Shown piece after piece: positions 12,020-36,572 of a stretch of DNA of 52,071 bases. The stretch spans positions 1 to 52,071 of the forward strand of contig JABIFY010000148.1 of the NCBI GenBank assembly GCA_018650465.1. The letters are read 5' to 3'. Every line of letters starts with the position of its first letter. Positions within the stretch are counted from its first letter, which is position 1. A program made the translations under genes and the position numbers. The notes beneath the pieces are model-generated. The model did no database searches. It saw only the letters and a list, made by a program, of their open reading frames with translations, and was not told the origin of the DNA. This DNA comes from Alphaproteobacteria bacterium (lineage in GTDB: Bacteria; Pseudomonadota; Alphaproteobacteria; UBA2966).

Positions 12020-13345
12020 ATGAAAAATCTTAAATACACAGGTGCTTTTGCTGCGGTTGCAGTCACGGCCCTGACTTTTGCCACACCGGCTCTGGCTGAG
12101 GACGCCAAAGTGACCGAGACGGCCTATATCTTTAACAGTCTGTCGTTCCTGATCCATGGCTTCATGGTGATGTTGATGGCAGCTGGTTTTGCCATGCTGG
12201 AAGCCGGCATGGTAAGGACCAAAAATGTGGCCACCATGTGCGTCAAGAATATTGCCCTTTATTCCATTGCCGGCATTCTCTATTACGCTGTTGGTTATAA
12301 CCTGATGTATCAGGGCGTTGATGGGGGCTTCATGGGCACCTTTGCACCCTGGGGCATCGATGACAGCGCCATGGCCAAGGGCGATTTCAGTGGAAACTAT
12401 TCGGCCTCTTCGGACTGGTTCTTCCAGATGGTATTTGTCGCCACAGCAGCCTCGATCGTTTCGGGTACAGTTGCCGAGCGCATCAAACTTTGGCCTTTCC
12501 TTGCCTTCGTCGTTGTCCTGACCGGTGTGATCTATCCGATCCAGGGTTCATGGCAGTGGGGCGGCGGCTGGCTCTCGGAAATGGGCTTTGCTGATTTTGC
12601 TGGCTCCACCCTTGTCCATTCAACAGGCGGCTGGGCTGCCCTGACCGGTGCCATCATTCTTGGTGCCCGCAAAGGCAAGTTCACCAAAAGCGGTGGTGTG
12701 CACCCCATGCCTGGCTCTTCTCTGCCATTAGCAACCCTGGGCACGTTCATCCTCTGGTTCGGCTGGTTCGGCTTTAACGGTGGCTCGCAGCTGGCCATGG
12801 GCAGTGCCTCGGATATTGCTGCGATTGCCAACATCTATATCAACACCAACATTGCTGCTGCCGGTGGCGTCGTCGCCGCCATGATTGCAACCCAGTTGAT
12901 TTACAAGAAGGTCGATCTGACCATGGCCCTGAACGGTGCCCTGGCTGGACTGGTCAGCATCACAGCCGGGCCGGATACCCCGACCATGGGCCAGGCCCTG
13001 CTGATTGGCGCTGTTGGCGGTATTATCGTGGTCTTTGCCATTCCCATGCTGGATAAACTGAAGATCGATGATGTTGTCGGTGCCATTCCGGTTCACCTGA
13101 TGGCCGGGATCTGGGGCACAATGGCTGTGCCGATTACCAACCCTGATGCCAGCTTTGTCACTCAAGCCATCGGTGTTGTCTCAATCGGTGCTTTCGTGAT
13201 CGTCGCCAGCTCGATTGCCTGGTTGGTTCTGAAAGCCACCGTTGGCATTCGTCTGGATGATGAAGCCGAAGCCCTGGGTGCAGACCGGACCGAGCTTGGC
13301 CTGGAAGCTTACCCGGAATTCGGTCAAGGCTCACAGTCTCTCTAG
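12020..13345 (+). CDS. amtB: Ammonium transporter AmtB
   Basis: This 441-residue Amt/Mep/Rh channel moves ammonium across the inner membrane. Residues 1-26 are a cleavable-type signal peptide ending in TPALAED. About eleven membrane segments follow. The pore histidine pair is seen in VHSTGGWAAL and VHLMAGIWG, and the family block DFAGSTLVHSTGGW is intact. The C-terminal tail (GIRLDDEAEALGADRTELG) is the cytoplasmic segment that contacts the PII protein. It follows glnK after 9 bases. A second, separately controlled Amt gene lies downstream, so this organism keeps two ammonium channels side by side. Confidence 0.97.
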   Translation: MKNLKYTGAFAAVAVTALTFATPALAEDAKVTETAYIFNSLSFLIHGFMVMLMAAGFAMLEAGMVRTKNVATMCVKNIALYSIAGILYYAVGYNLMYQGVDGGFMGTFAPWGIDDSAMAKGDFSGNYSASSDWFFQMVFVATAASIVSGTVAERIKLWPFLAFVVVLTGVIYPIQGSWQWGGGWLSEMGFADFAGSTLVHSTGGWAALTGAIILGARKGKFTKSGGVHPMPGSSLPLATLGTFILWFGWFGFNGGSQLAMGSASDIAAIANIYINTNIAAAGGVVAAMIATQLIYKKVDLTMALNGALAGLVSITAGPDTPTMGQALLIGAVGGIIVVFAIPMLDKLKIDDVVGAIPVHLMAGIWGTMAVPITNPDASFVTQAIGVVSIGAFVIVASSIAWLVLKATVGIRLDDEAEALGADRTELGLEAYPEFGQGSQSL

Positions 13346-13377
13346 GGTCTCGCTCGATCCTCGGGATGTCAAAATCT

Positions 13378-13413
13378 GGCGGCCAGTTGATTCAAATTGA
13401 TCGGCTGGCCGCC
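13378..13413 (+). terminator. Hairpin after amtB
   Basis: Nine perfect base pairs, GGCGGCCAG with CTGGCCGCC, enclose an 18-base loop 33 bases after the amtB stop. No U-tract follows, so it may be an mRNA-stabilising 3' hairpin rather than an intrinsic terminator. Confidence 0.45.
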
Positions 13414-13438
13414 TAATAAATAGACACTAAAGACCTGT

Positions 13439-13466
13439 CTGCCCATTTTTAGGGCAGGCGGGTTTT
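13439..13466 (+). terminator. Possible terminator downstream of amtB
   Basis: CTGCCC (13439-13444) pairs with GGGCAG (13452-13457) around a 7-base T-rich loop and is followed by GCGGGTTTTAG. It is the better of two hairpins in the gap at ending glnK-amtB transcripts. Confidence 0.45.
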
Positions 13467-13554
13467 AGTGCGTCTGCAATACAGCATACCTGAATTCTAC
13501 AATTTCCCTTTTAATATCAAAGTACTGTGCCGATTATTACCGCATCTACACGGG

Positions 13555-13571
13555 TTGGCACGGCGCTTGAA
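13555..13571 (+). promoter_or_regulatory. Second sigma-54-type promoter, for the second Amt gene
   Basis: TTGGCACGGCGCTTGAA has the -24 box TGGCACG and a -12 box TTGAA (consensus TTGCA) at the correct spacing. It lies 125 bases before the ATG at 13696. The 350-base gap that holds it (13346-13695) otherwise contains the two hairpins after amtB and a palindrome at 13570, and I see no gene there. The conserved context (a second ammonium transporter) supports the call although the -12 box lacks the usual GC. Confidence 0.65.
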
Positions 13572-13593
13572 ATGTAAACTGGAATTTACATTT
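13570..13593 (+). repeat. Perfect 9-bp inverted repeat at the predicted transcript start
   Basis: AAATGTAAA (13570-13578) and TTTACATTT (13585-13593) flank CTGGAA. The sigma-54 promoter just before it would start transcription near 13583, inside this palindrome, so it could be an operator or a 5' mRNA hairpin. Confidence 0.7.
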
Positions 13594-13695
13594 TGCCGGA
13601 CGGAAAGAATTCGTCTGGTTTGACAGGGAATATTTGCCAGAAGTTTGCGTCGGAAATCATTCCGCTTGTAGAACAAATGGCCGTTGGAGGATTTT

Positions 13696-14925
13696 ATGGA
13701 CGCGTTTAAAACCGGGGCAGATGTCTTTTTTGTTCTGATGGGAGCCATTCTGGTGCTGTTCATGCACGCGGGATTTGCCTTTCTGGAAGTAGGCACGGTG
13801 CGCAAGAAAAACCAGGTCAACGCCCTGGTCAAAATCATTGTCGACTTTGCCATCTCAACCATGGCCTATTTCTTTATCGGCTATGCGATCGCCTACGGCA
13901 TCGACTTTTTTGCCGGGGCCCAGATTTTAAGTGGCACGGCAAAGGGCTCACCCTTTGCCAGCAACGGCTATGACCTGGTGAAGTTCTTCTTCCTGCTGAC
14001 ATTCGCCGCCGCCATTCCCGCCATTATTTCAGGCGGAATCGCCGAACGGGCCAAATTTGGCCCCCAAATGGCAGCAACGGCCCTTCTGGTGGCCTTCATC
14101 TATCCTTTCTTTGAAGGCATTGTCTGGGGTGGTAATTTTGGCGTGCAGGACTGGATCGCAGCCACCTTCGGGGCCCAGTTTCATGATTTTGCCGGTTCCA
14201 TCGTTGTCCATGCCATGGGTGGGTGGATAGCCCTGGTGGCCGTCGTATTGTTGGGTGCCCGCAAGGGTCGCTACCGCAAAGACGGTGGTGTCATCGGCAT
14301 TCCGCCGAGTAACATCCCGTTTCTGGCCTTGGGATCATGGATTCTCTGTGTCGGCTGGTTCGGATTTAACGTCATGAGTGCGCAAAGCGTCGAAGGCATT
14401 ACAGGCCTTGTCGCCATGAATTCACTGATGGCCATGGGCGGTGGTATCCTTGCGGCGCTGTTTTTTGGCCGTAATGATCCGGGCTTTGTGCATAACGGCG
14501 CCCTCGCGGGCCTGGTGGCCATCTGTGCCGGTTCTGACATCATGCATCCGCTGGGTGCTTTGGTTACCGGGTTGATCGCCGGTGGGCTTTTTGTCTGGGC
14601 CTTCACGACCTGCCAAAACAAGTGGAAAATTGACGACGTGCTGGGCGTCTGGCCCCTGCACGGCCTGTGTGGGGCCATGGGCGGCATTGCGGCCGGTGTC
14701 TTTGGCCTGGAGGCCTTGGGCGGTATGGGTGGCGTTACTCTGGGGGCACAGATTTTTGGCACAGTTGCTGGAATATCGGTAGCGATTGTCGGTGGCCTGA
14801 TCGTTTATGGCGGCCTGCGCCTGACCGTCGGCATCCGGATGAGCGAAGAAGACGAGTTTCACGGCGCTGACCTCAGCATCCACAAGATCTCCGCCTATCC
14901 GGAAGACGATATTCCGGTTCGGTAA
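13696..14925 (+). CDS. amt: Second ammonium transporter (Amt family)
   Basis: This 409-residue Amt-family channel has no N-terminal signal peptide and starts straight into the first membrane helix (FFVLMGAILVLFMHAGFAFL). The pore histidines are present in VVHAMGGWIAL and WPLHGLCGAMGG. The tail GIRMSEEDEFHGADLSIH has the ELG-to-LSI style end of many PII-binding Amt proteins. TTGGAGGATTTTATG gives a strong ribosome site and fixes the ATG at 13696. It differs clearly from the upstream amtB, so it is an older paralogue and not a recent tandem copy. A sigma-54-type promoter of its own and a strong terminator at 14950 make it a one-gene unit. Confidence 0.95.
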   Translation: MDAFKTGADVFFVLMGAILVLFMHAGFAFLEVGTVRKKNQVNALVKIIVDFAISTMAYFFIGYAIAYGIDFFAGAQILSGTAKGSPFASNGYDLVKFFFLLTFAAAIPAIISGGIAERAKFGPQMAATALLVAFIYPFFEGIVWGGNFGVQDWIAATFGAQFHDFAGSIVVHAMGGWIALVAVVLLGARKGRYRKDGGVIGIPPSNIPFLALGSWILCVGWFGFNVMSAQSVEGITGLVAMNSLMAMGGGILAALFFGRNDPGFVHNGALAGLVAICAGSDIMHPLGALVTGLIAGGLFVWAFTTCQNKWKIDDVLGVWPLHGLCGAMGGIAAGVFGLEALGGMGGVTLGAQIFGTVAGISVAIVGGLIVYGGLRLTVGIRMSEEDEFHGADLSIHKISAYPEDDIPVR

Positions 14926-20870: not shown

Positions 20871-21359
20871 TTAACGTTTCCGATAGATGAAATACCGCCC
20901 GGATACCACGCCTTGAGGCAATTCCACAGCAATCCAGTCGGGACAGGAAAATTCCTGATCTGAAACAATTGCGCCGCCGCTACAAACAAGTTTGTTGACG
21001 GGATCAACCAAGGTCGCAGCCTGGGCGCTGGTCGCGGCCTTGTCACCGCTGCCGGTATCACAATGGGCGAGGGCGGCCAGGTCACCTGTTCTATCCAAAG
21101 CTGAGGGCAGCGTGTCAGAAAAGTCGCCCAGAAAGGCGTGTGCCTCATCTGGCAAGCAGTCGGGGTGGGCCGCAAACTGGCGATCAAAAACAAAAATTTC
21201 GCGGTCGGGCAATATTGCTCTCAGATGATCATAAGTCCGCCCATTGCCCAGACCCAGCTCAAGGACGGGCCCAGTGACCGACTTGATCATGTCAGCGGCC
21301 AAGGCAAGGCAGTCGCGTTGCGCCTCCAGGCGACGGATTGCGCTATCAAGACGGCTCAT
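20871..21359 (-). CDS. Small SAM-dependent methyltransferase
   Basis: This 162-residue Rossmann-type protein shows the SAM-binding motif I as GPVLELGLGNGRTYDHL (residues about 30-46) and an acidic motif II at EIFVFDRQF. It is shorter than usual, with few strands after motif IV, so it is a minimal class I methyltransferase whose substrate cannot be told. It lies 65 bases downstream of the cyclic-nucleotide-binding gene on the same strand and probably belongs to its transcript. Nothing in the sequence shows whether it acts on the product of the neighbouring glycan genes. Confidence 0.8.
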   Translation of the reverse strand: MSRLDSAIRRLEAQRDCLALAADMIKSVTGPVLELGLGNGRTYDHLRAILPDREIFVFDRQFAAHPDCLPDEAHAFLGDFSDTLPSALDRTGDLAALAHCDTGSGDKAATSAQAATLVDPVNKLVCSGGAIVSDQEFSCPDWIAVELPQGVVSGRYFIYRKR

Positions 21360-21424: not shown

Positions 21425-21874
21425 TCAGTTTTGACTGACAGCCCGCATGAGCTGATCGGTCGTGCGATACAGACGGGCCGCCAGTTCGCGCATGATTTCG
21501 ACCGACATTTGCGGGAACTCGCTGATCATTCTAAAGAACAGGTCCTTGGAGATTTTCAAAACCTCGAGATCCTCTTTGGCTTTTACGGAAGCTGTTCGCG
21601 GGACATCGCACAGAATAGCAACCTCACCAACAATATCATTTCGTTTAACTGTCGAAACGACAACTTCGCCACGATCTGTCGACAAAATGACATCCGCTTG
21701 GCCACCAATCACGATATAGGCAGAGTCACCGATATCGCCCTGATGAAACAATTCTTCATCAGCCTTGAATTTCAGACGCTCACTGGTGAACGCCAAAAGC
21801 TTCAACTTGGACGGCTCGATCTTCGCGAACAACGGGATCTGCCGTAACAGCTCAACTTCTTCGTTGATACTCAC
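21425..21874 (-). CDS. Cyclic-nucleotide-binding domain protein
   Basis: This 149-residue protein is essentially one cNMP-binding beta-barrel with no DNA-binding helix-turn-helix. The start IPLFAKIEPSKLKLLAF is the first helix pair, YIVIGGQADVIL a core strand. The phosphate cassette is VGEVAILCDVPRTASV, with the glutamate that holds the ribose and the arginine that holds the phosphate. It should therefore bind cAMP or cGMP. Lacking an effector domain, it may regulate a partner by contact. It lies 48 bases downstream of the ABC-exporter gene on the same strand, so the ABC protein is the obvious candidate partner. The cyclase at 43234-44601 is a possible signal source. Confidence 0.92.
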   Translation of the reverse strand: MSINEEVELLRQIPLFAKIEPSKLKLLAFTSERLKFKADEELFHQGDIGDSAYIVIGGQADVILSTDRGEVVVSTVKRNDIVGEVAILCDVPRTASVKAKEDLEVLKISKDLFFRMISEFPQMSVEIMRELAARLYRTTDQLMRAVSQN

Positions 21875-21922: not shown

Positions 21923-24574
21923 TCACCCATCACTTGCTAATTCCTTAAATAACGTGCCTTCGCGGTCCAGCGATTCCACGGTTCCTTTTTCTGCAATGGC
22001 CCCCCGGTCAAAAACCAGAACTTGATCAAAATGCACGGCCAGATCAGCTCGGTGCAGAACCCAGATCAATGTCCGGTCAGCAAATTCCTCCAGAATATTT
22101 TCCATGATTATACTCTGCGATGCCGAATCCAGGGCCGCAGTCGATTCCGACAAGATCAACATGTCAGGTCGTTTGACAATGGCGCGGGCGATGGCCAGTT
22201 TCTGGCGTTGGGCACCAGACAAACGCGAACCAGCGATTCCCGCGTCATAACTCATGCCCACTTCAGCAACTGAATCATACAGCCCCTCAGTCTCAATGAC
22301 TTCAGAGATCAATTCGCCAATCCGGTCTGCGGCCTTGGGAACACCATATGCCACTTTGCCAAACAGGATGTTGTCCTGCAGATTGGAGGCGCTGTTGTAG
22401 AATTCAGCATCGAAAAATTCCACTGCATTGGCCATTTCTTGCGGCAAGGTTTCACGAAAAGCCTTCCTGCCTTCGAGAATTTTGTCCATAACCGCGTCGT
22501 CGATCAAACCAAGGCGATGGCGGGCCGGGACCAGTTTGAAGGGCAAGGACAGCAAGGCCTTGCGATCTTCATCCCGTGCGTCAACCAGTTTTTCCCGATC
22601 AACACGGGTTAACAAAGCCTGGAAGTCCTGCAACTCGTCCGCAGAAATAAAGGCGTATTGCTGGAACAGTTCATGATCAGACGGCACGTCAGCAAAAATC
22701 TCTGCCATGGTTGAAGCCGCCGCATAACCGATTTCGATCATTTGTTCCGTCAAACCGATTTTATCCAGCACAGCAACCACATGTTCATTCGACCCCAGGG
22801 CTTCCATGTCAAAGGTATCACCGACGACGTTACCAAACAGCAGGTTTTCAGCTACAGAAGCATTGTGATTATATTTTTCCTGATCAAATGTTTCGATCAG
22901 ATCAGCAACATCGGGCGCCGTCAGGCGGTCCCGTAAACTGTATCGTGCCGTGAGAATCTTGTTGGCCAGCTCCGGTGTAGATTTTGGATCAATGGTGCCA
23001 CGCAAACCAAACTGGTACACGTCTCCATCCAGACCAACAATCTTCAGGGCGCGCAAGCCTTCCAGGCGCAAGCTATCCAGACTGTCTGCGCCCGTAACAG
23101 AAAAATCCGTCCAGTCCGCTTCCGAATCCATAACCGAGTTTCCGGAAAGCTCGGCTTCTTCGACAAATTCGCTGTACTGCTCAGCCGCCTCACCCTCGCG
23201 CTCAAGAGTTGTTTGTGGTCGGTGTTTCAAGCCGTAATAAAGGTTATTGCTCAGGCTCGCGTTAAAGATAAAACCCTGTTGGCCAACAAAGGCAATGCGC
23301 CGACCGGTGATCGCTTCCGGCATATCTTCCAGGCCACGGTCGTCATAAGAAATTTTTCCCTTGGTCGGGTCAAGCAGACGGGCAAGCAACTGGCCCATTT
23401 CTTCCTTGCCGCTGGAGGGGCGACCCACAATAGCTATTTTTGAAGGTAAATCCAGGTTCGCTGAAATCGAATTCACAATTGGCTCGCCTTGATCATCAGA
23501 CAGGGTCAAACCGGAAATTGCCAAAGTGGAGGAAAAAGTTTCATCGCCAGATGGATCATTTTCCTGGTGCTCAACTGTGCGCATCCCAGGCGGATCAAAC
23601 TGCGTAATCACCGTTTCATATTTAATGCGGGCATCTTGCTGACGTTGGTAGAAGCCCAGCAGTTCTTTCCAGGGCGCTCCCAAATCCTTGTGGGCCGCAA
23701 TGGCGGCAACAAGGGTACCGATTTCCAGGCCGCCGGTAATAACCAGATAGCCGCCGATCGAATAAAAGAAGAAAGGACCCATCTGCTGGATGAAGTTATT
23801 CAAGAACTTGATGAAAAACTTTTTGCGGTAAATCTCATAGCGTACAACAAAGATTTCGCCGAGGCGGGCCGAGAAACGGGCGCGTTCCAGTTGCGATGTA
23901 TCGTGTGCATGAATTTCCGGCACACCCTGAACGGTTTCACCGATGCGGTCCGATAAACTGCGCACCAGTTTGACGCGGCGCTTGCCCAGCAGGTTCACTT
24001 TGCTCTGCAGGCGTGGAATGATGTAGAGCTGCAGTGGATAGAGGGCAATGGCTGCAACAGCCATCATCCAGTTCTGGTAAAACAAAAAGCCGATAATAAC
24101 CAGCAAGGTGCCGCCCTGAAAAGCCGGTAGGGAAAAGGCCTCACCAACAAATCCGCCCAGCGGTTCAACTTCGGCTGTCACCATGGGAATGATTTCACCC
24201 TGGGACATGTTGCGAAATGTCGGCTGTGGAAAGCGCAAAACCCGGCCAAACAATTCATAACGCAAACGGCGCAGCATGCGTTCGCCCGTCAGGCCACGAT
24301 AAACGTTGATGTAATATTTGAAGCCCTGGTTAACAACGACCAACCCCAGAAAAGCCACGCACAAAGTAATCAGATAGGGCACATGATCCAGTTCATACCC
24401 GAACAGCTCGACCGGAAAATCGCCAGGATCACCCTGGATCGCGTCATTGATGATCATCTTGGGTAGTTCGTAAAACAAGTAGAGGAACGGGAAAGACAAA
24501 ACCGCCATTACCGTCAACCAAACTTGCTGCTTTTTGCTGTATTTCAGCAAATATTTATAGATTGTCGGTTCCAT
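21923..24574 (-). CDS. Aberrant ABC exporter with expanded, degenerate ATPase domain
   Basis: An 883-residue protein. Residues 1-330 form a type I exporter membrane domain with six helices. The ATPase part is unusual. Walker A reads GRPSSGKEE with Lys390, lacking the third glycine and the Ser/Thr after lysine. Walker B reads MLILSESTAALD, with Ser809 in place of aspartate but Glu810 kept. Signature LSGAQRQKLAIARA and switch histidine VLHRADL are normal. About 420 residues separate Lys390 from Glu810, where about 125 is usual. The extra part repeats a Q-loop-like segment: FNASLSNNLYYG (437-448), NASVAENLLFG (about 572) and SASNLQDNILFG (about 727). The ATG at 24574 is preferred because the protein then begins MEPTIYKYLLKYSKKQQ; 24580 is possible. 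It probably moves or regulates a lipid-linked glycan. Confidence 0.88.
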   Translation of the reverse strand: MEPTIYKYLLKYSKKQQVWLTVMAVLSFPFLYLFYELPKMIINDAIQGDPGDFPVELFGYELDHVPYLITLCVAFLGLVVVNQGFKYYINVYRGLTGERMLRRLRYELFGRVLRFPQPTFRNMSQGEIIPMVTAEVEPLGGFVGEAFSLPAFQGGTLLVIIGFLFYQNWMMAVAAIALYPLQLYIIPRLQSKVNLLGKRRVKLVRSLSDRIGETVQGVPEIHAHDTSQLERARFSARLGEIFVVRYEIYRKKFFIKFLNNFIQQMGPFFFYSIGGYLVITGGLEIGTLVAAIAAHKDLGAPWKELLGFYQRQQDARIKYETVITQFDPPGMRTVEHQENDPSGDETFSSTLAISGLTLSDDQGEPIVNSISANLDLPSKIAIVGRPSSGKEEMGQLLARLLDPTKGKISYDDRGLEDMPEAITGRRIAFVGQQGFIFNASLSNNLYYGLKHRPQTTLEREGEAAEQYSEFVEEAELSGNSVMDSEADWTDFSVTGADSLDSLRLEGLRALKIVGLDGDVYQFGLRGTIDPKSTPELANKILTARYSLRDRLTAPDVADLIETFDQEKYNHNASVAENLLFGNVVGDTFDMEALGSNEHVVAVLDKIGLTEQMIEIGYAAASTMAEIFADVPSDHELFQQYAFISADELQDFQALLTRVDREKLVDARDEDRKALLSLPFKLVPARHRLGLIDDAVMDKILEGRKAFRETLPQEMANAVEFFDAEFYNSASNLQDNILFGKVAYGVPKAADRIGELISEVIETEGLYDSVAEVGMSYDAGIAGSRLSGAQRQKLAIARAIVKRPDMLILSESTAALDSASQSIIMENILEEFADRTLIWVLHRADLAVHFDQVLVFDRGAIAEKGTVESLDREGTLFKELASDG

Positions 24575-24744: not shown

Positions 24745-26010
24745 ATGCTGAACGAAATCGCGGGGCAGGGGGGCAACGCCGGAAATGGGCGTGGCGCACG
24801 GGTCCTTATATATAGTCACGATACATTTGGCCTGGGGCATCTTCGCCGGGCCCTGACGCTTGCCCATTCGCTGGTGGAAAGCCACAAGAACCTGTCAGTG
24901 TTGATTTTGTCGGGCTCACCTATCATCGGCAGCTTTGATTTCCGCGCCCGCGTCGATTTTGTGCGGGTCCCCGGCGTCATCAAATTGCGTAACGGCGAAT
25001 ATACTGCCCTTAATTTGCTGATCGACCTGGATGAAACCTTGTCTATCCGCACTTCTATTATCAAACATACAGCCGCCATTTTTGATCCTGACGTTTTTAT
25101 CGTCGACAAGGAGCCATCGGGCTTGCGGGGCGAAGTATTACCCACGCTGAAAATGCTGAAAAAGCGCGGTACCCGGCTGGTCCTGGGCTTGCGTGACGTT
25201 CTGGACGAACCAGCCTTGTTGGTCCCGGAATGGAAGCGCAAAAAAGTGCTGCCTGCCCTGAAAAATCTCTATGATGACATTTGGGTCTATGGCCTGCCGC
25301 AGATCTGTGAACCCCTTGCAGAACTGGAATTGCCAGAAAGTGTCCTCAAAAAGGTCACTTATACGGGCTATTTGCCCCGCTGCGTGCCCACAACACCAAA
25401 CCCCTCTCCGCCCCCCGAAATCACCAAAAACCCTTATTTGCTGGTCACCACTGGTGGTGGTGGTGATGGGGAGGGCTTGATTGAATGGGTTTTGCGCGCC
25501 TATGAAACCGACCCGATGCTGCCTTATCCGGCCTTGTTGGTTTTGGGGCCGTTTATGCAATCAGATAAACAGGCTGAATTTCTGAATAGAGCCAGCAGTC
25601 TGGAACGCGTTGAGGCCATCACTTTTGACCAGCATATGGAAAGCCTTGAAGATAATGCGGTCGGCATCGTCGCCATGGGCGGTTACAATACTTTTTGTGA
25701 GATTCTGTCGCTGGATAAAAAAGCGATCATCGTACCCCGCAAAGTGCCGCGTCTGGAACAGTTTATCCGTGCTTCAAGGGCCGAAACCCTTGGCCTGATC
25801 CGTATGCTGGAAGATGATGGCAATTATGATCCGGCCGTCATGGCTGACGCCTTGCGCCAGATGCCGCGCCAGGGCAAGCCGTCCGATGTGGTTGTGCCCG
25901 GTTTGCTGGAAGGCCTGGTCAATGTGGGCCGTCTGATTGAGCCCTTTCTTGACCGACATGCGGAAAAGCCCGAGGTTGAGCGACCCACCGTGCTGGCCAA
26001 CCGGGTCTGA
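24745..26010 (+). CDS. MurG-like GT-B glycosyltransferase (first copy)
   Basis: This 421-residue protein has the two-domain GT-B look of MurG/GT28 enzymes. The N-terminal loop DTFGLGHLRRALTLAHSL corresponds to the glycine-rich GxGH acceptor-side motif. The C-terminal half has LLVTTGGGGDGEG and the nucleotide-sugar block VAMGGYNTFCEILSLDKKAI. There is no signal peptide or membrane helix, so it works at the inner face of the membrane. It is paralogous to the protein at 29140-30300, which shares GLGHLRRA and GGYNT. It heads the plus-strand cluster, divergent from the ABC-exporter gene across 170 bases. Donor and acceptor are unknown. Confidence 0.85.
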   Translation: MLNEIAGQGGNAGNGRGARVLIYSHDTFGLGHLRRALTLAHSLVESHKNLSVLILSGSPIIGSFDFRARVDFVRVPGVIKLRNGEYTALNLLIDLDETLSIRTSIIKHTAAIFDPDVFIVDKEPSGLRGEVLPTLKMLKKRGTRLVLGLRDVLDEPALLVPEWKRKKVLPALKNLYDDIWVYGLPQICEPLAELELPESVLKKVTYTGYLPRCVPTTPNPSPPPEITKNPYLLVTTGGGGDGEGLIEWVLRAYETDPMLPYPALLVLGPFMQSDKQAEFLNRASSLERVEAITFDQHMESLEDNAVGIVAMGGYNTFCEILSLDKKAIIVPRKVPRLEQFIRASRAETLGLIRMLEDDGNYDPAVMADALRQMPRQGKPSDVVVPGLLEGLVNVGRLIEPFLDRHAEKPEVERPTVLANRV

Positions 26011-26029
26011 ACCAAATCAGGTGAGCGAG

Positions 26030-27292
26030 ATGTCGGAAAGACCTGACAAAAGTCCAGGTGCGAACAAGGTCGCTGTTGTCGTCAAGGGCTACCCCCGGCT
26101 GTCTGAAACCTTTATTGCCCAGGAAATCCTTGCACTGGAACAACGCGGGATGGAGCTTCAGATTTACAGTCTGCGTCACCCGACTGACACTGCTGTCCAT
26201 GAACTGAACAAAAAAATCACTGCCCCCGTCAGTTATCTACCGGAATACATCTATCAAGAACCAAAACGGGTTCTGAAGGCCTGGCTGGCTGTCCGAAAAC
26301 TGAAAGGCTATGGCAAGGCCCGAAGGGTTTGGTCACGCGATCTTGTGCGCGATCCGTCCCCAAACAGGATACGTCGTTTCGCCCAGGCAATGGTTTTGGC
26401 GGCAGAACTGCCTGATGACATCAAACACCTTTACGCCCATTTCATTCATACGCCAGGGTCGGTGACACGCTATGCGGCCATTATCAAAGGCCTGCCATGG
26501 AGTGTTTCCGCCCATGCAAAAGATATCTGGACCCTGCCCACCTGGGAATTAACGGAAAAACTGCACGACTGTTCGTGGGCTGTAACCTGTACTGAAGCAA
26601 ATCGGCAATATCTCGACACCCTGGCCCCGCCAGAAAAAGTCCATCGGGTCTATCACGGCCTTGATTTTACTCGATTTCCTGAAACCGAACGGTCGGAAAT
26701 CGAAAGTAATCCTGATAGTGCGATCGTCATATTGTCTGTTGGTCGTGCGGTTGTTAAAAAAGGGTACGATGTGCTGTTATCCGCGCTGGCAGATTTGCCA
26801 TCCGATGTCAACTGGAAGTTTGTTCACATCGGAGGAGGGCCATTGCGCGACAAATTGAAAATTCTCGCAGCTGAAAAAGGGATTTCCGAACGTACGGACT
26901 GGCGTGGTGCAAAGTCCCAGAGCGAGGTTATTGCCGCTTATCGCGAAGCTGATATTTTTGTTCTGGCAAGCAGAATAGCCAGCGATGGAGACAGGGATGG
27001 CTTACCCAATGTTTTGATGGAAGCACAAAGCCTGGGCCTTAGTTGCATAAGTACGACCGTCTCGGCAATTCCTGAACTGATAACGAACGAACGGACAGGT
27101 TTATTGGTGCCGCCTGAGTCGTCACAAGAAATGACCACAGCGCTTGAGAGATTGTGCCGGGATCCAGAATTACGAAAATCACTTGGCAAAGCCGGTATGA
27201 AAAACGTACGGTCAGAATTTAAGCTGGACAAGGGTATTGGCCAGCTTATTGAAGAGTTTGACCGTGCAATTCCTGAATCGCAACGCGGATAA
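26030..27292 (+). CDS. GT4-family glycosyltransferase (first)
   Basis: This 420-residue retaining GT-B glycosyltransferase opens its N-terminal domain with VVVKGYPRLSETFIAQEILAL, common among exopolysaccharide GT4 enzymes. The C-terminal domain has VYHGLDFTRF, ILSVGRAVVKKGYDVLLSAL and the donor-binding E-x7-E region DGLPNVLMEAQSLGL. The ATG at 26030 follows AGGTGAG; an in-frame GTG at 26021 is the alternative. It starts 20 bases after the first MurG-like gene and 6 bases before the next GT4 gene, so the three are one transcript. The sugar transferred is not predictable. Confidence 0.92.
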   Translation: MSERPDKSPGANKVAVVVKGYPRLSETFIAQEILALEQRGMELQIYSLRHPTDTAVHELNKKITAPVSYLPEYIYQEPKRVLKAWLAVRKLKGYGKARRVWSRDLVRDPSPNRIRRFAQAMVLAAELPDDIKHLYAHFIHTPGSVTRYAAIIKGLPWSVSAHAKDIWTLPTWELTEKLHDCSWAVTCTEANRQYLDTLAPPEKVHRVYHGLDFTRFPETERSEIESNPDSAIVILSVGRAVVKKGYDVLLSALADLPSDVNWKFVHIGGGPLRDKLKILAAEKGISERTDWRGAKSQSEVIAAYREADIFVLASRIASDGDRDGLPNVLMEAQSLGLSCISTTVSAIPELITNERTGLLVPPESSQEMTTALERLCRDPELRKSLGKAGMKNVRSEFKLDKGIGQLIEEFDRAIPESQRG

Positions 27293-27298
27293 CCGAAC

Positions 27299-28477
27299 GT
27301 GCGTATTTCATTTTATGCACCCCTGAAATCGCCCGACCACCCGGTTCCGTCCGGCGACAGACGAATGGCTCGTTTGCTGATAACAGCTTTGGAACTAGCC
27401 GGCCATAAAATCGCACTGGCGTCCGATTTCAGAAGTTACGAGGGTACGGGTGATCCGTTGTTGCAAGAGGCCATGTTTGCGACCGGTCGTGTAGAAGCTG
27501 ATCATATTGTTCAAACCTGTCTGGAACAACCTGCCCACAACCGACCGGAGGTTTGGTTCACCTATCACCAGTATTATAAGGCACCAGATCATTTAGGACC
27601 GATCGTTAGTTCGACTTTGGGCATCCCATATGTCGTCGCTGAACCGAGTCATGCACCAAAGCGTGCGGCCGGGCCCTGGAAAATGGCCCATGAAAGCGTG
27701 ACGGCCAGTCTGGAAATGACCGACTGCGCGTTTTGTTTAACGCAACATGACATGACCTGCGTTGAACCGGTACTGGCTTCACCTGATCGATTGGTCTATT
27801 TACCACCTTTTCTCGATAGCGAGCCATTTCAACACGATCGGTCTCAAAAAAATGTGGCCCGTCAACACCTTAGCGAAGCATTTAATATTACGGCTGATCT
27901 AATTTTGATCGCCGTTGGCATGATGCGCCCTGGTGACAAGTTTGACTCCTATCAGCGCCTGGCAGAAAGCCTCGATCAACTGGATACTTTAGTTGATTGG
28001 CAACTTCTGATCGTTGGAGATGGCGACAGGGGAGAACAAGTCAGAAAATTGTTCACTAGCCGAAACAAACTCACCGCGCGGACTTTATTTGCCGGTGAAC
28101 AGCCCGCATCGGAGGTAGCCCGCATGTTGTCCGCCGCAGACATTTGCGTTTGGCCGGCGGTGGGCGAAGCCTATGGCATGGCCTTGCTGGAGGCCCAAGC
28201 CAGCGCTTTGCCAGTTGTCGCCGGAAATCTGCGCGGCGTGCCTGATGTTGTGCGCGATGGCGAGACAGCTTTGCTGGTGCCGCCTGAAGACCCCGCCGCT
28301 TTTGCCGCTGCGGTTAAAAGGCTGCTCGAAGACCAAAACTTGCGCCAGCGTTTCGGGTCACGTGCTGCCCTGTTTGTGGCGGAAGACAGATCCCTGGAAC
28401 GTGCTGCAGATATACTGAATGAAGGTTTGAACATGGCCATCGAAAACAAAGCTGATTCACGCAGGACTGGCGCATGA
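27299..28477 (+). CDS. GT4-family glycosyltransferase (second)
   Basis: This 392-residue GT4-like protein begins at a GTG (27299), since the family start RISFYAPLKSP follows at once and no ATG is near. Its N-terminal domain keeps the acceptor-side SGDRRMARLLITALELAGH. The C-terminal domain has ILIAVGMMRPGDKFDSYQ, LLIVGDGDRGEQV and the donor block VGEAYGMALLEAQASALPVV with the paired glutamates, followed by the usual GGVPD-like RGVPDVVRDGETALLVPP. The stop overlaps the next start by 4 bases (ATGA), so translation is coupled to the phosphatase. Substrates are unknown. Confidence 0.92.
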   Translation: MRISFYAPLKSPDHPVPSGDRRMARLLITALELAGHKIALASDFRSYEGTGDPLLQEAMFATGRVEADHIVQTCLEQPAHNRPEVWFTYHQYYKAPDHLGPIVSSTLGIPYVVAEPSHAPKRAAGPWKMAHESVTASLEMTDCAFCLTQHDMTCVEPVLASPDRLVYLPPFLDSEPFQHDRSQKNVARQHLSEAFNITADLILIAVGMMRPGDKFDSYQRLAESLDQLDTLVDWQLLIVGDGDRGEQVRKLFTSRNKLTARTLFAGEQPASEVARMLSAADICVWPAVGEAYGMALLEAQASALPVVAGNLRGVPDVVRDGETALLVPPEDPAAFAAAVKRLLEDQNLRQRFGSRAALFVAEDRSLERAADILNEGLNMAIENKADSRRTGA

Positions 28478-29085
28478 CCCGACTGGCACTGATCAGGCAC
28501 GGACGCACAGCCTGGAATGATGAAGCCCGCATGCAAGGGCAAACAGATATTCCGCTGTCTGATGCCGGATATCAGCAACTATTGAATGATATAGGCCCGG
28601 CGCTGAACCCGAAGCTTGCCGGATTATACTGGTTTTCCAGCCCCCTGAAGCGCGCCCGCACGACGGCTGGATTGCTGTGCGGTTTTGCGCCACCGCTTGA
28701 GCCCAGGTTAATGGAAATGAACTGGGGGGACTGGGAGGGCAAAACCCTTGCTGCCCTGCGCCAGGAACCGGGGCAGGATTTGCAGGCCAACGAGGATCGG
28801 GGACTGGATTTTCGCCCCACTGGCGGTGAAAGCCCACGTGAGGTCCAGCATCGTTTAAAATCCTGGATGGCTGAAATTGCGGAAACGCGACCGGGAATTG
28901 CAGCCGTCTGCCACAAGGGCGTCATACGGGCCGTGATGGCCCTGGCCTATAACTGGAACATGATGGGCAAGGCTCCGGTGAAGCTGGGCTGGTCTTGCGC
29001 CCATATCTTTGACATTGCCCCGGACGGCACGCCTCACCCCTACAAGATGAATGTGTCTGTTGGCTCCGGTTTTGGCACAAAATAG
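28474..29085 (+). CDS. Histidine phosphatase family protein
   Basis: This 203-residue protein is of the phosphoglycerate-mutase-like (branch 1) histidine phosphatase family. The catalytic phosphohistidine is in ALIRHGRTAWND, the pocket arginine in FSSPLKRARTTAG, the acid in MEMNWGDWEGK, and the second histidine in AAVCHKGVIRAV. All are present, so it should be active. Its place inside a glycosyltransferase operon, coupled to the upstream gene by ATGA overlap, suggests it removes phosphate from a sugar-phosphate or glycosyl-lipid intermediate. CobC-like alpha-ribazole phosphatase activity is less likely without cobalamin genes nearby. Confidence 0.92.
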   Translation: MTRLALIRHGRTAWNDEARMQGQTDIPLSDAGYQQLLNDIGPALNPKLAGLYWFSSPLKRARTTAGLLCGFAPPLEPRLMEMNWGDWEGKTLAALRQEPGQDLQANEDRGLDFRPTGGESPREVQHRLKSWMAEIAETRPGIAAVCHKGVIRAVMALAYNWNMMGKAPVKLGWSCAHIFDIAPDGTPHPYKMNVSVGSGFGTK

Positions 29086-29139: not shown

Positions 29140-30300
29140 ATGAAACGACGGGTTCTTTTTTATGTACAACATCTGCTGGGGATAGGCCATCTTCGGCGGG
29201 CGGCCACATTGGTGCGCGCCATGGATGCTGCGGGACTTGAGGTAACGCTTGTCTCAGGTGGGTCTCCTGTTCCCGGGCTGGATCTCGGTGGTGCCAGGTT
29301 ATGGCAGCTGCCACCAGTGAGGGCGGTTGATCTCTATTTCAAGGAACTGGTTGATGAAAATGACCAGCTGATTGATGATGCCTGGCGTGCCCGCCGGGCC
29401 GACGCCCTGATGACTGCCTGGCAGGAAACAAATCCACACATTCTGATGTTTGAATTGTTCCCTTTTGGTCGTCGACAAATGCGTTTCGAATTGTTGCCTT
29501 TGCTGGATGTTGCGATAGCGCAATTAAACCGCCCGAAAATCATTTGTTCCGTTCGCGACATCCTGGTCGGGCAAAAGAAGCCTGGCCGTAACGACGAAAT
29601 GATCGATCTGATCAACCGCTATTTTGATCATGTATTACTGCATGGGGATCCCAATTTAATCCCCTTTGATCAAACCTTTCCACATGCGGAACGAATGGGC
29701 GATAAATCTGCTTATACAGGCTATGTTGTTGATACATCTGGCGTAAAAGGTGACGAAGATAGCCCCGGCTTTGGCGAGGTCATCGTCTCTGCAGGGGGTG
29801 GTGCCGTTGGCGATCAGTTGTTGCGAACGGCAATGCTTGCCCGTGCCACCAGCACCCTGTCTGACCGTCCATGGCGCTTGTTGGTAGGTTATACCGTTCC
29901 CGAAACGGAATTTTCAGCGTTGAAATCCGAGGCCCCTGAGGGTGTAATAGTGGAACGCGCCCGACCTGATTTTACCAGTCTTTTGGCCAACTGCGCGGTC
30001 TCGGTTAGTCAGGGCGGTTATAACACGATTATGGAAACCTTGCATGCCGGTGCCAGGGCAGTTGTGGTGCCCTATGCTGGCGGAATTGAGACCGAACAGA
30101 CCCTGCGTGCGCGCCTGTTATCTGAACAAGGTGTGTTGCACATTGTTGATGAAGACGCATTGTCACCGCACATCCTTGCAAAGGCCGTCGACAAAGCCGC
30201 CAACGGACCACCGTCGGGTGCTTTCATCGATACCGGCGGTGCCAAAAGATCCGCAGCCATGATTTGCGCCTGGGCAAATGCCATGACCTGGGCCGATTGA
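29140..30300 (+). CDS. MurG-like GT-B glycosyltransferase (second copy)
   Basis: This 386-residue GT-B protein is related to that at 24745-26010. The N-terminal motif is QHLLGIGHLRRAATLVRAM and the C-terminal nucleotide-sugar block is VSQGGYNTIMETLHAGARAV, ending in the GGIETEQTLRA segment that resembles the MurG donor site. There is no signal peptide. The two paralogues differ over most of their length, so each probably makes a different linkage. It lies 54 bases after the phosphatase gene, the largest gap inside the glycan part, and its stop overlaps the deacetylase start (TGATG). Confidence 0.87.
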   Translation: MKRRVLFYVQHLLGIGHLRRAATLVRAMDAAGLEVTLVSGGSPVPGLDLGGARLWQLPPVRAVDLYFKELVDENDQLIDDAWRARRADALMTAWQETNPHILMFELFPFGRRQMRFELLPLLDVAIAQLNRPKIICSVRDILVGQKKPGRNDEMIDLINRYFDHVLLHGDPNLIPFDQTFPHAERMGDKSAYTGYVVDTSGVKGDEDSPGFGEVIVSAGGGAVGDQLLRTAMLARATSTLSDRPWRLLVGYTVPETEFSALKSEAPEGVIVERARPDFTSLLANCAVSVSQGGYNTIMETLHAGARAVVVPYAGGIETEQTLRARLLSEQGVLHIVDEDALSPHILAKAVDKAANGPPSGAFIDTGGAKRSAAMICAWANAMTWAD

Positions 30301-31109
30301 TGACACAGGCAATCAGGGACATAGCCACTGCCTGGCAGGCTTTGTCTGAAGAAGTGGCTTTGTGGGCAGACACCGGGAAAGAAGTCACTCTTTGGTGGCG
30401 CGATGACGATGCTATTGCGCCATCTGTTGAGCTGACCCGGCTTGAGCAACTGGGCCGCCGATACGATATTCCGCTGTCACTGGCTGTCATCCCGCAATCC
30501 GCCAGCCCGGAATTGGAACAAAGCCTGGCCAACCATCCAGCGTCCACATGTGTTCTTGTGCATGGGCTTGATCATCACAATTACGCGGTTGAGGGTGAAA
30601 AGAGGTCTGAATTTACTGCTTCAAGGCCGGTGAGCGAGATGAAAGACGCTCTCAGCCAGGCTTTGCGTCTACAAACATTCCATTTGTCCGGGGGGCAGCA
30701 ATTCGCAGAAAAATTTCTCCCGGTTCTGGTGCCGCCCTGGAACCGGATTCCGCAAAACATGGTCGCCTGTCTTTCTGAATTGGGCTTCATGGGGCTTTCC
30801 ACTTACAAAGCGCGTGATCTGGCGAATGCGCCCCCAGGACTTGTCATCAACAATTGTCATGTCGACCCTGTTAACTGGAAAGCGCAAAAGTCCTTTTTGG
30901 GGGAAGGCGAAACCCTGACCCTGATAACAGGCCATTTGTCTGCACGGCGGACACATAAGGCTGATTTTGCTGAAATTACCGGCATTTTGACCCATCATCT
31001 GGTCCAGGATGCTAAAACCTGGACTTTTTTGGAAGAATTTGCGGCCTGGGCCATGGAACAACCGACTGTTCGCTGGCTTGATGCCCACGAAGTCTTTAAG
31101 CTTTCATGA
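30300..31109 (+). CDS. Polysaccharide deacetylase-like (NodB-type) protein
   Basis: This 269-residue protein is a divergent member of the NodB/CE4-like deacetylase fold. The metal and catalytic acids appear in LWWRDDDAI (Asp35-37), the metal histidines in VHGLDHHNY (His88, His92), and LVPPWNRIPQNM is the motif-3 arginine region. Length and motifs suggest removal of an acetyl group from an amino sugar, or another small hydrolytic trimming. There is no signal peptide, so it would act in the cytoplasm on a precursor. The start overlaps the stop of the preceding glycosyltransferase and its own stop overlaps the next start, hence tight coupling. Confidence 0.82.
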   Translation: MTQAIRDIATAWQALSEEVALWADTGKEVTLWWRDDDAIAPSVELTRLEQLGRRYDIPLSLAVIPQSASPELEQSLANHPASTCVLVHGLDHHNYAVEGEKRSEFTASRPVSEMKDALSQALRLQTFHLSGGQQFAEKFLPVLVPPWNRIPQNMVACLSELGFMGLSTYKARDLANAPPGLVINNCHVDPVNWKAQKSFLGEGETLTLITGHLSARRTHKADFAEITGILTHHLVQDAKTWTFLEEFAAWAMEQPTVRWLDAHEVFKLS

Positions 31110-31705
31110 TGGTGGAGGGGGAAGATTGGCTGGTCAAGTCAAGGCATTATTATCCAATGCGGGCACTTGCAGGTGATTACTTCCGTACATCAATCGGTTT
31201 GTTTCTGACCGTCGGGCCGTTAATGCTGCTCGATGTGGTCGATGTTTTGAAGGTTATTTTGTTCTTGTTGTTGATTGTTTTTCTGATATTTGGCTTTCGC
31301 ACGATGATCCGACAGGCCACAACGGTAATGCTCTGTGACAAGGGTATTCGCGTCAGGGGTGGTCTCGCGCCACAAAAATTGATTTCGTGGCGTACAATGC
31401 GGCATTTGAAGCTAAAGTATTTTTCGACACGGCGGGATCGCGAGGCCGGTTGGATGCAATTGCGGCTGGACGGCGAAGATGGCCAGCTGTCTCTCGATAG
31501 CGCCATTGAGGGATTTGAAGAAATTGTTGCGCGAGCGACAGAATTTGCGGGTGTAGCTGGATTGAGCCTTGAGGCAACAACAATGGAAAACCTGGAAGCA
31601 ATGGGCCTCATGCCTGCTCTGGATAATGCAGCGAGTGATTCAGCCGACAATCGTTCTGCATACCATTCGTCAACATATGATGTCAGGGACACGCACAGTC
31701 GATGA
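31106..31705 (+). CDS. Small membrane protein with PH-like (DUF304-type) domain
   Basis: This 199-residue protein has two adjacent membrane helices (about 28-68, including LKVILFLLLIVFLIFGF), then a cytoplasmic part that resembles the bacterial PH-like fold: MLCDKGIRVRGGLAPQKLISW is the typical strand pair with a tryptophan. The last 40 residues are polar and look disordered. No enzyme motif is seen. It overlaps the deacetylase gene by ATGA and the next ATPase gene by ATGA, so it links the glycan part to the ABC-importer part. It may be a scaffold in the membrane. The PH-like assignment is tentative. Confidence 0.65.
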   Translation: MMVEGEDWLVKSRHYYPMRALAGDYFRTSIGLFLTVGPLMLLDVVDVLKVILFLLLIVFLIFGFRTMIRQATTVMLCDKGIRVRGGLAPQKLISWRTMRHLKLKYFSTRRDREAGWMQLRLDGEDGQLSLDSAIEGFEEIVARATEFAGVAGLSLEATTMENLEAMGLMPALDNAASDSADNRSAYHSSTYDVRDTHSR

Positions 31706-33600
31706 GCAATGTACTTCTTGTCCGTGATTTGAAAATCGAATTCCGGGTACCGGAAGGCGTCATTAAAGCCGTCGAAGGCGTGTCCTTTCGGGTACCCAAA
31801 GGAAAAACCGTCGCCATAGTGGGTGAATCGGGTTCGGGTAAAACCGTTATCAGCCAGGCCATCATGGGTATCCTGCCCAAACCCGCCCATATCACAAATG
31901 GCGAAATTGTCTTTTTTGACCCCGACAAGCCCGGTAATTTTGTCGATATCGCCAAGCTGAGCCCCGACGGCAGCGCCATGCGCAATCTGCGCGGCGGCCG
32001 CATTTCGATTATTTTCCAGGAACCGATGACGTCCCTGTCGCCGCTGCATACCATCGGCAACCAGATCGGCGAGGCTTGTGAGCTGCATTCTGATTGCAAT
32101 GCAGCCCAGGCCCTGGAGCGCAGTATTGAAATACTTGACCTGGTCGGATTTCCAGACCCGGCCCAGTCCGTACACAAATATCCGTTTGAACTTTCAGGTG
32201 GCTTGCGCCAACGTGCCATGATCGCCATGGCCCTGATTTGTCGACCGGCCCTGTTGATCGCGGACGAGCCTACCACCGCGTTGGATGTGACTATTCAGGC
32301 CCAGATCCTGAAACTAATGAACGACTTACGCGATAAGCTGGGCATGGCCGTTTTGATGATTACCCACGATCTGGGCGTGGTGGCCAATATGGCCGATGAA
32401 ATTGTTGTCATGTATCACGGCAAGGTCATGGAAAGTGGCACCCTGCACGATATTTTCCGCGATCCGCAACACCCATACCTGAAGGCCTTGTTACGCGCCG
32501 TGCCACGTTTTGGCATGAAGCCCGGTGAGCGCCTGGTGCCGATCCGCGAGATCAAGACCGATACATCCCACTTGATGGATGAGCGTCGGGCCGAGCCACC
32601 ACACGACAGTGAACATCCCCTGCTTCGCGTGGAAGGGTTATGCAAAAGCTTCTCGACCCGCAAGACATCCCTGTTTGGCAGCAAGCCAGGAGGATCACAC
32701 CTGGCCGTTGATGATGTGTCTTTTCATATTGAACGCGGTGAATGCCTGGGTCTGGTGGGCGAAAGCGGTTGCGGTAAAACCACTGCCAGCAAGATGCTCA
32801 TGCGCGCCTTTGACGCTGACGCCGGCGAGATCAGACTTAACGATCGCGGAGGAGATATTGATGTCAGGGCCCTGAAGGGGGCTGACCTGATGGCCTATCG
32901 CCGCAAGGTTCAATATATTTTCCAGGATCCGTTTGGATCCCTGAACCCGCGCATGACAGTGTTTGACATCATCAATGAACCCTTCGTCATCCATAATATC
33001 GGCACCGAAGAAGAACGCTTTGAGAAGGTCAAGGAGCTGGTGCAGCTTGTTGGCCTGAATGTCAGTTTCCTGCGTCGTTATCCGCATAGTTTTTCCGGCG
33101 GCCAGCGCCAGCGCATTGGCATCGCCCGTGCCCTTGCCTTGCGGCCATCCTTGCTGATTTGTGACGAACCTGTTTCGGCACTGGATGTATCAATTCAAGC
33201 CCAGGTTTTAAATCTGATGAAAGACTTGCAGGAAAAACTGGGGCTGACCTATCTGTTTATCTCACACAATCTGGCGGTCGTGGATTATATCGCAGACCGT
33301 ATCGCTGTGATGTGTGCCGGACGCCTTGTTGAAATGGCGCCGCGCGAAGAACTGTTTGCCAATCCTGTGCATCCCTACACCAGGGCCTTGCTGTCTGCTG
33401 TGCCAAAAACAGACCCGGACTCAAGGCTGGACCTGACGGCGTTGATGGAAGGCAAAACTTCTGATCCGTCCGCCTGGAACGCACCGTTTACACAAACCGG
33501 AGACATCAAGCCGCATCTGGTCGATATTGGCGAAGGGCATTTTGTCCGGGCCGCCGTGGAAAGCGACCATGCGAGTGCGAAGGAGCTTTTAAGATCATGA
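31702..33600 (+). CDS. Peptide-type ABC importer, fused double ATPase
   Basis: This 632-residue cytoplasmic protein joins the two ATPases of an oligo/dipeptide importer (DppD-DppF, as in YejF). The first half has Walker A GESGSGKT, signature LSGGLRQRAMIAMAL and Walker B LLIADEPTTALD. The second has GESGCGKT, FSGGQRQRIGIARAL and LLICDEPVSALD. Each half ends in the HPYxKALL/HPYTRALLSAVP segment diagnostic of this class. Both sites look active. Its ATG overlaps the stop of the small membrane protein, and its own stop overlaps the binding-protein start. The peptide or other solute carried is not shown. Confidence 0.96.
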   Translation: MSNVLLVRDLKIEFRVPEGVIKAVEGVSFRVPKGKTVAIVGESGSGKTVISQAIMGILPKPAHITNGEIVFFDPDKPGNFVDIAKLSPDGSAMRNLRGGRISIIFQEPMTSLSPLHTIGNQIGEACELHSDCNAAQALERSIEILDLVGFPDPAQSVHKYPFELSGGLRQRAMIAMALICRPALLIADEPTTALDVTIQAQILKLMNDLRDKLGMAVLMITHDLGVVANMADEIVVMYHGKVMESGTLHDIFRDPQHPYLKALLRAVPRFGMKPGERLVPIREIKTDTSHLMDERRAEPPHDSEHPLLRVEGLCKSFSTRKTSLFGSKPGGSHLAVDDVSFHIERGECLGLVGESGCGKTTASKMLMRAFDADAGEIRLNDRGGDIDVRALKGADLMAYRRKVQYIFQDPFGSLNPRMTVFDIINEPFVIHNIGTEEERFEKVKELVQLVGLNVSFLRRYPHSFSGGQRQRIGIARALALRPSLLICDEPVSALDVSIQAQVLNLMKDLQEKLGLTYLFISHNLAVVDYIADRIAVMCAGRLVEMAPREELFANPVHPYTRALLSAVPKTDPDSRLDLTALMEGKTSDPSAWNAPFTQTGDIKPHLVDIGEGHFVRAAVESDHASAKELLRS

Positions 33601-35501: not shown

Positions 35502-35549
35502 CCTTTTATTGGACCGCATAGCTGAGACCGCTGGAGAGTAAGACAAGAA

Positions 35550-36572
35550 ATGTTCACTTATATTGTTCACCGGATGCTGATCATGATCCCGACTTTGTTG
35601 GCGATCAGTGTGCTTGTGTTCATCATTATCCAGCTGCCACCGGGCGATTATCTGTCGAACCAGATACAGGAACTGAAAGCCCAGGGCGAAACAGCGGCTT
35701 TGGAAAAAATTGAATTCCTGCGCGAACAATATGGCCTCGACCGACCCATGGTTCAACAATATGCCGTCTGGGTGGGAATCTGGCCTGGCAACAACGGCTT
35801 TGAGGGTTTGTTACAAGGTAATCTGGGCTATTCCTTTGAATATAATTTGCCTGTTGGTGATGTCGTTGGTGACCGTCTGTTCCTGTCTTTTCTGGTGTCC
35901 TTCACCACCATCATTTTTACCTGGATCGTCTCTTTCCCCATCGGGGTATATTCGGCGACGCACCAATACAGCATCGGCGATCACAGCCTGACGTTTCTGG
36001 GCTTTATCGGATTGGCCACGCCCAACTTCCTGCTGGCGCTGGTCTTGTTGTATTATGCCAACGTGACTTTCGGCACCTCCATCGGCGGCCTGATGGACCC
36101 ACAATATCTGGAAGAGCCCTGGTCCTTTGCCAAGCTGATGTCCGTTTTGGAACATCTGTGGATTCCGGTTGTCGTCATTGGCACTTCGGGCACCGCAGGT
36201 ATGATCCGCCGTCTGCGCGCGAACTTGCTGGACGAGCTGCAAAAACAATATGTCACCACTGGCCGCGCCAAAGGCCTGCACCCCTTCAAGGTGCTCATGA
36301 AGTATCCTTTGCGCATGGCCCTGAACCCGTTCATTGCCGATATTGGCAACATGCTGCCGCAAGTGATTTCTGGTGCCGCCATTGTTTCTGTGGTGCTGTC
36401 ACTGCCCACCACTGGCCCTATGCTGGTGGAAGCCTTGCGCTCGCAGGATCAATACCTGGCCGGATCATTCCTGATGTTCCTCGCCGCCCTGACCGTGGTT
36501 GGCATGTTCCTGTCTGATCTGGCCCTGGCGATGCTCGACCCTCGTATTCGCCTGACCGGGGGTTCACGATGA
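35550..36572 (+). CDS. ABC importer permease, DppB/OppB type
   Basis: This 340-residue inner-membrane protein has six helices, starting at the usual HRMLIMIPTLLAISVLVFII. The cytoplasmic EAA-type loop lies in TGRAKGLHPFKVLMKYPLRMALNPF, which docks on the ATPase. It is the first of the two permeases and pairs with the gene at 36569, overlapping it by 4 bases. Length and topology are normal for the class. Nothing in it points to a particular substrate. Confidence 0.95.
   Translation: MFTYIVHRMLIMIPTLLAISVLVFIIIQLPPGDYLSNQIQELKAQGETAALEKIEFLREQYGLDRPMVQQYAVWVGIWPGNNGFEGLLQGNLGYSFEYNLPVGDVVGDRLFLSFLVSFTTIIFTWIVSFPIGVYSATHQYSIGDHSLTFLGFIGLATPNFLLALVLLYYANVTFGTSIGGLMDPQYLEEPWSFAKLMSVLEHLWIPVVVIGTSGTAGMIRRLRANLLDELQKQYVTTGRAKGLHPFKVLMKYPLRMALNPFIADIGNMLPQVISGAAIVSVVLSLPTTGPMLVEALRSQDQYLAGSFLMFLAALTVVGMFLSDLALAMLDPRIRLTGGSR

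Follow-up and report, generated by a model that had tools for sequence, protein, structure and literature searches.

An ABC-exporter-fold protein family with decayed ATP-site motifs and a triplicated Q-loop segment, linked to conserved glycan genes in Alphaproteobacteria

Background

The ATP motifs of ordinary ABC exporters hardly vary, and their nucleotide-binding domain (NBD) is coupled to the transmembrane helices through one short Q-loop/helical segment. The gene studied here, located in a stretch of 52,071 nucleotides from an alphaproteobacterial assembly (contig JABIFY010000148.1, positions 1 to 52,071; hereafter the window), raises the question of what an exporter-fold protein does when this pattern is reversed, that is, when the ATP motifs decay while a triplicated coupling region is conserved. 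The question is not confined to a single genome: full-length orthologues occur in 79 of the 240 sampled genomes of the class, about one third, with rhizobia and Azospirillum among the carriers. The idea that an exporter transmembrane domain (TMD) can function without its own ATPase has so far been based on MsbA and LmrA truncated in the laboratory, and this family allows a natural test of it.

Results and discussion

An intact gene of the type I exporter fold

The features of the locus are listed in Table 1. The protein has the type I exporter fold: PF00664 (residues 42-293, E 1.5e-21) is fused to a split PF00005 match (E 7.4e-15) and the NBD core is complete in the structure model. These were the only two Pfam domains found, and a C39 peptidase domain is thus absent. 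In the AlphaFold model of the whole protein (pLDDT 81, with the TMD poor in parts) the NBD core superposes on the NBD of ComA over 239 of 239 residues at 1.7 A. The domain plan is shared with MsbA, Sav1866 and similar exporters (type IV fold), but the protein scores far below the cut-off of the MsbA model (TIGR02203; 216.7 against 602), its ATP motifs are decayed and it is longer by about 300 residues, which include two additional Q-loop/helical units. It likewise fails the model of the PglK flippase (NF050066; 97 against 1000), and among the 25 NCBIfam models listed none was above its cut-off.

The frame, the stop and the coordinates of the open reading frame agree. The start is the ATG at 24574; the longest call runs further upstream, from a TTG. 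Residue numbering starts at the codon before the ATG, so that K391 and E811 in this text are the K390 and E810 of the first-pass annotation of this DNA. Comparison with a same-genus orthologue yields a dN/dS of 0.03 with dS near saturation, which indicates strong purifying selection and, together with the intact frame, rules out a pseudogene. In the 93 aligned family sequences on which all motif statistics are based, the TMD is the best-conserved large part of the protein.

Table 1. Features of the locus, with positions in the window. Fractions of 93 refer to the aligned family sequences, fractions of 85 to the loci compared.
Feature	Position	Strand	Remarks
Degenerate ABC-exporter-fold protein, TMD and NBD with insert	21923..24574	minus	883 aa counted from the ATG; ORF, Pfam
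Transmembrane domain, residues 2-330	23588..24574	minus	PF00664; low column entropy
Walker A GRPSSGKEE, residues 385-393	23399..23425	minus	Glu at the Ser/Thr position
Repeat segment 1, residues 428-450, consisting of the true Q-loop and the helix after it	23228..23296	minus	N445 92/93
Separately modelled region, residues 450-790, most of the extra ~300 residues	22208..23230	minus	pLDDT 93.4, pTM 0.84
Repeat segment 2, residues 560-583, LIETFDQEKYNHNASVAENLLFGN	22829..22900	minus	N578 93/93, F581 92/93, G582 92/93
Repeat segment 3, residues 719-741, VEFFDAEFYNSASNLQDNILFGK	22355..22423	minus	N736 93/93, G740 93/93
Signature RLSGAQRQK, residues 785-793	22193..22219	minus	R785 89/93, Q790 86/93, R791 91/93
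Walker B MLILSE, residues 806-811	22145..22162	minus	Asp replaced by Ser
Cyclic-nucleotide-binding domain protein (PF00027), next gene	21425..21874	minus	81/85 loci
SAM methyltransferase (PF12692), third gene of the group	20871..21359	minus	38/85 loci
GT28-C-type glycosyltransferase, divergent neighbour	24745..26010	plus	65/85 loci; Rhizobium etli counterpart annotated redA
GT4 glycosyltransferase, EpsE-like	25937..27292	plus	64/85 loci; R. etli counterpart annotated redB
Second GT4 glycosyltransferase	27299..28477	plus	62/85 loci
Histidine phosphatase family protein (PF00300)	28474..29085	plus	52/85 loci
Second GT28-C-type glycosyltransferase (PF04101)	29140..30300	plus	63/85 loci
Putative polysaccharide deacetylase	30264..31109	plus	33/85 loci; Azospirillum counterpart, assigned by synteny, annotated polysaccharide deacetylase; no Pfam match

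Decay of the ATP site

A functional ABC ATPase is expected to show Walker A GxxGxGK[S/T] and a Walker B Asp, and neither is present here. The first-pass annotation had read both altered Walker motifs from the sequence and had placed Lys390 and Glu810 about 420 residues apart; the translation confirms the motifs, and the distance from Lys391 to Glu811 is indeed 420 residues. It had also called the signature and the switch histidine normal, which holds for this protein (LSGAQRQ and His842) but not for its family. Already here the second Gly of LSGGQ is changed. Across the family this Gly is found in 12 of the 93 sequences and both signature Gly residues are mostly lost, while R-L-S-x-x-Q-R-Q is kept by most members; the switch-loop His is present in 39 and the Q-loop Gln in just 29. 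Walker A position 392 is Asp or Glu in 64 sequences and Ser or Thr in 12, and Walker B position 810 is Asn in 52, Ser in 19 and Asp in 8. The Walker A Lys is retained in 58 sequences and the Glu after Walker B, kept in this protein, in 63. On a tree of the TMD (thinned sequences, a quick method, Arg counted as loss) the state of the P-loop Lys changed at least 14 times. Divergent lineages that lack any recognisable P-loop or signature still keep most of the repeat segments described below, most commonly with an x-N-[LI] core. Judged from this family-wide decay and from the lineages devoid of a P-loop, the earlier proposal that normal turnover chemistry has been lost is probably right.

The same numbers can be read differently. 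The protein might be a live ATPase with odd metal chemistry, in which the acidic residue of Walker A substitutes for the Asp lost from Walker B and Mg-ATP is bound and slowly hydrolysed. The prevalence of Asp/Glu at position 392 and of Asn/Ser at position 810 (71 of the 93 together) speaks for this reading, as does the frequent retention of the P-loop Lys and Glu811. A clean swap of charges between the two motifs is nevertheless rejected, since the changes are not tightly coupled: an acid at Walker A goes without the Walker B Asp in 58 sequences and with it in 6, and 27 have neither. The absence of P-loop and signature from some members and the loss of the Q-loop Gln and switch His from most also argue against retained hydrolysis, which we regard as unlikely.

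In two genomes, G167 and G353, the family is represented by two or three divergent members (loci L138-L142), none of which has a P-loop.

A triplicated Q-loop/helical unit

In 12 canonical exporters from the same genome set Walker A and LSGGQ lie 103-104 residues apart, and an insertion of about 300 residues is thus located between the Q-loop and the signature of the present protein. The earlier observation that an N-A-S/.../N-L-x-F-G segment occurs three times was reproduced, with cores at residues 439-449, 572-582 and 728-740. By profile-profile comparison the three segments are homologous. The second and third match over about 80 columns (score 90.9, E 7e-16), and the first matches the second and the third with scores of 34.9 and 35.2 (E 2e-5 and 7e-6). 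Since 100 column-shuffled profiles per pair reached maxima of only 21-22, and since the Asn of the segments is kept in 92-93 of the 93 sequences, a chance origin of the repeats is excluded.

Residues 450-790 fold confidently when modelled on their own. Pfam gave no match for this region at E 0.01, and Foldseek alone returned nothing significant for its model. When the Foldseek candidates were re-aligned, ABC exporters came out on top, with low Z scores of 3.6-4.6 at 2.2-3.4 A, and all matched in the region bounded by the Q-loop and the signature helix (MsbA 423-498, BmrA 424-496, TmrB 421-492). An unrelated insert is excluded by the sequence comparison, and the structural matches, weak as they are, point in the same direction. 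On the strength of the profile homology and of these weak matches, the insert would consist of copies of the Q-loop/helical unit and would have arisen by partial duplication within the NBD. This was the proposal of the first-pass annotation, and it holds at the level of sequence profiles. The outcome named there as refuting, an ordinary NBD with an unrelated insert and dissimilar segments, was not observed: there is a single complete NBD fold of the ordinary kind, but the inserted segments are related to each other.

The helices that close units 1 and 2 are similar to one another, scoring 28.7 where shuffles reached at most 12.6. The possibility that they are decayed signature helices was rejected, because they did not match the true signature (18 of 60 and 16 of 60 shuffles were as good).

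A conserved glycan and cyclic-nucleotide neighbourhood

The ABC gene is divergently oriented to a run of glycosyltransferase genes that recurs in most of the loci (Table 1). The first GT28-C-type glycosyltransferase and the ABC gene are found together in 75 genomes, the ABC gene alone in four and the transferase alone in one (p 4e-56 before correction for relatedness, shared ancestry being ignored), and the co-occurrence extends to genomes in which the two genes are widely separated or placed on different contigs. Neighbourhood and genome co-occurrence support a link of the ABC gene to glycan synthesis, and thus the glycan side of the earlier proposal of a gate or scaffold in glycan export.

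The gene for a cyclic-nucleotide-binding (cNMP) protein next door escaped the earlier annotation, and the regulated gate proposed there thereby gains a concrete input. The phosphate cassette of the cNMP protein is well kept (G in 80, E in 78 and R in all of 81 sequences), and at three loci (L020, L021 and L028) the ABC protein carries this domain as a C-terminal fusion. Several lineages encode a class III cyclase next to the group, and two rhizobial operons include one; the genes of Rhizobium leguminosarum and R. etli follow each other as class III cyclase, oligopeptide importer, redA, redB, glycosyltransferase, ABC gene and cNMP gene. A cyclase resembling that of R. etli adjoins the group in six other loci.

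The window itself also encodes a class III adenylate/guanylate cyclase domain (PF00211), in an open reading frame of 461 aa at 43234-44619 that lies some 21 kb away from the cNMP gene. The source genome has about 29 PF00211 matches. An ABC importer of the oligopeptide type, comprising a fused double ATPase, a binding protein and two permeases, lies at 31702-37759, and importers of this type recur beside the glycan and ABC genes, in Rhizobium inside the same gene run. A conserved protein of 199 aa without a Pfam match is encoded at 31106-31705 (14 of the 85 loci), and a tandem pair of ammonium-transporter family genes at 12020-14925.

Relatives without an NBD

Genes of about 310-400 aa encode a related TMD alone, without an NBD. 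In a quick tree these TMD-only relatives stand apart from the canonical exporters, with two label changes, and a signature-motif scan of the 9-13 kb fetched around them detected no exporter-type NBD gene. The stand-alone TMDs at L118:4413-5354, L119:4045-4983, L120:2693-3703 and L168-L174 are specifically related to the full-length family. Such genes are present in about one tenth of 142 sampled genomes of the class, several of which also carry a full-length gene.

A possible role for the protein

We tentatively favour, with less than even confidence, a reading in which the protein is a non-hydrolysing, cyclic-nucleotide-controlled exporter-fold component of the conserved glycan pathway. A membrane protein of the ABC exporter fold would have given up normal ATP hydrolysis, and the NBD unit that starts with the Q-loop strand, continues with the post-Q-loop helix and reaches the helical subdomain would have been copied to a total of three. 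Selection would now guard the repeat copies and the TMD while the ATP site decays, and the NBD may now serve as a platform for docking and gating. The cNMP protein encoded next door, or in some loci fused, could dock there, and the binding of cAMP or cGMP to it might alter the state of the TMDs. These in turn might transport or gate an intermediate, either a glycan or a lipid-linked glycan, that the adjacent glycosyltransferases supply. No energy would come from the protein's own ATP site, and the protein would work as a gated or ATP-independent exporter; we infer that it forms a homodimer, and likewise its substrate, direction and energy source.

The absence of hydrolysis is suggested by the decay of the ATP motifs as opposed to the near invariance of the repeat Asn, by the lineages that have lost the P-loop and by the TMD-only relatives, and control by cyclic nucleotides by the almost constant presence of the cNMP gene with its conserved cassette, by the fusions and by the class III cyclase neighbours. 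A conduit of this kind is physically reasonable, since MsbA without its NBD still transports, powered by a pH gradient (PMC4979069). On the other side stand the retention of the P-loop Lys, Glu811 and R-L-S-x-x-Q-R-Q, which exceeds what pure decay would lead one to expect, the acidic Walker A residues that could stand in for the lost Asp, and the low Z scores of the structural matches of the insert. A bolder version, in which hydrolysis has been abandoned at both sites of the homodimer, the triplicated coupling unit has become a gate operated by cyclic nucleotides and a sister lineage has dropped the NBD altogether, appears doubtful to us.

The available evidence separates the non-hydrolysing reading only partly from a live ATPase and from two further alternatives; the first-pass interpretation as a whole is supported in part. 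The protein could be a non-transporting receptor or regulator, comparable to SUR in KATP channels, which passes a cyclic-nucleotide or substrate signal to the glycosyltransferases or to the oligopeptide importer. The dispensability of the ATP site in parts of the family, the cNMP gene and cyclase neighbours and the oligopeptide-type importer operon that often adjoins would fit such a function, and SUR chains are near the top of the whole-length structural neighbours, where true exporters score equally. The conserved TMD and the NBD-less relatives suit a membrane conduit at least as well, and a receptor role seems to us improbable. Least probable is that the protein forms one half of a heterodimeric exporter and that a canonical half encoded elsewhere provides a working site, as in TM287/288 and MsRv1273c/72c: known exporters with degenerate sites are indeed hetero- or full-length dimers (PMC7756269), and part of the signature is retained, as a subunit serving its partner's site would need, but the signature Gly residues are lost, an adjacent canonical half was found in none of the 85 loci (five motif matches coincide with the oligopeptide-importer ATPase), and none was found elsewhere on the contig of the window.

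Comparison with known systems

TM287/288, TAP and the ABCC family, which have one degenerate site, likewise depart from the consensus at Walker B and the signature. These degenerate-site exporters keep one of their two sites canonical, and their Walker B most often changes from Glu to Asp (PMC7756269), whereas here the Walker A Ser/Thr and the Walker B Asp are themselves missing and no gene for a partner half was found nearby. HetC of Nostoc resembles the present family in having a cNMP-type domain on an exporter body, and this domain is needed for its function (PMC10986499). The HetC domain, however, is N-terminal and bound ppGpp rather than cAMP, and HetC has a peptidase domain and an essential ATPase (PMC10986499); in the present family the cNMP domain is a separate gene product or C-terminal, and the ATPase is decayed. 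Finally, the truncated MsbA-MD and LmrA-MD demonstrate that an exporter TMD can work without an NBD (PMC4979069), but these are laboratory constructs, whereas the decay of the NBD described here, and its absence from the sister family, are natural.

Distribution and annotation of the family

In the mainly openly readable literature we found no description of the family, of natural NBD-less relatives or of the names redA and redB. The family and its putative cyclic-nucleotide-linked glycan pathway thus appear to be undescribed so far, and annotation files the protein as "ABC transporter ATP-binding protein". Among relatives, orthologues with the same insert share 32-91% identity. Among the matches listed from a collection of named genomes, most are from Alphaproteobacteria, together with a few bins labelled Gammaproteobacteria and one labelled Anaerolineae. 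The gene is frequent on plasmids of Rhizobium and Sinorhizobium and also occurs on those of Azospirillum and Ruegeria, and these copies are annotated simply as ABC transporter.
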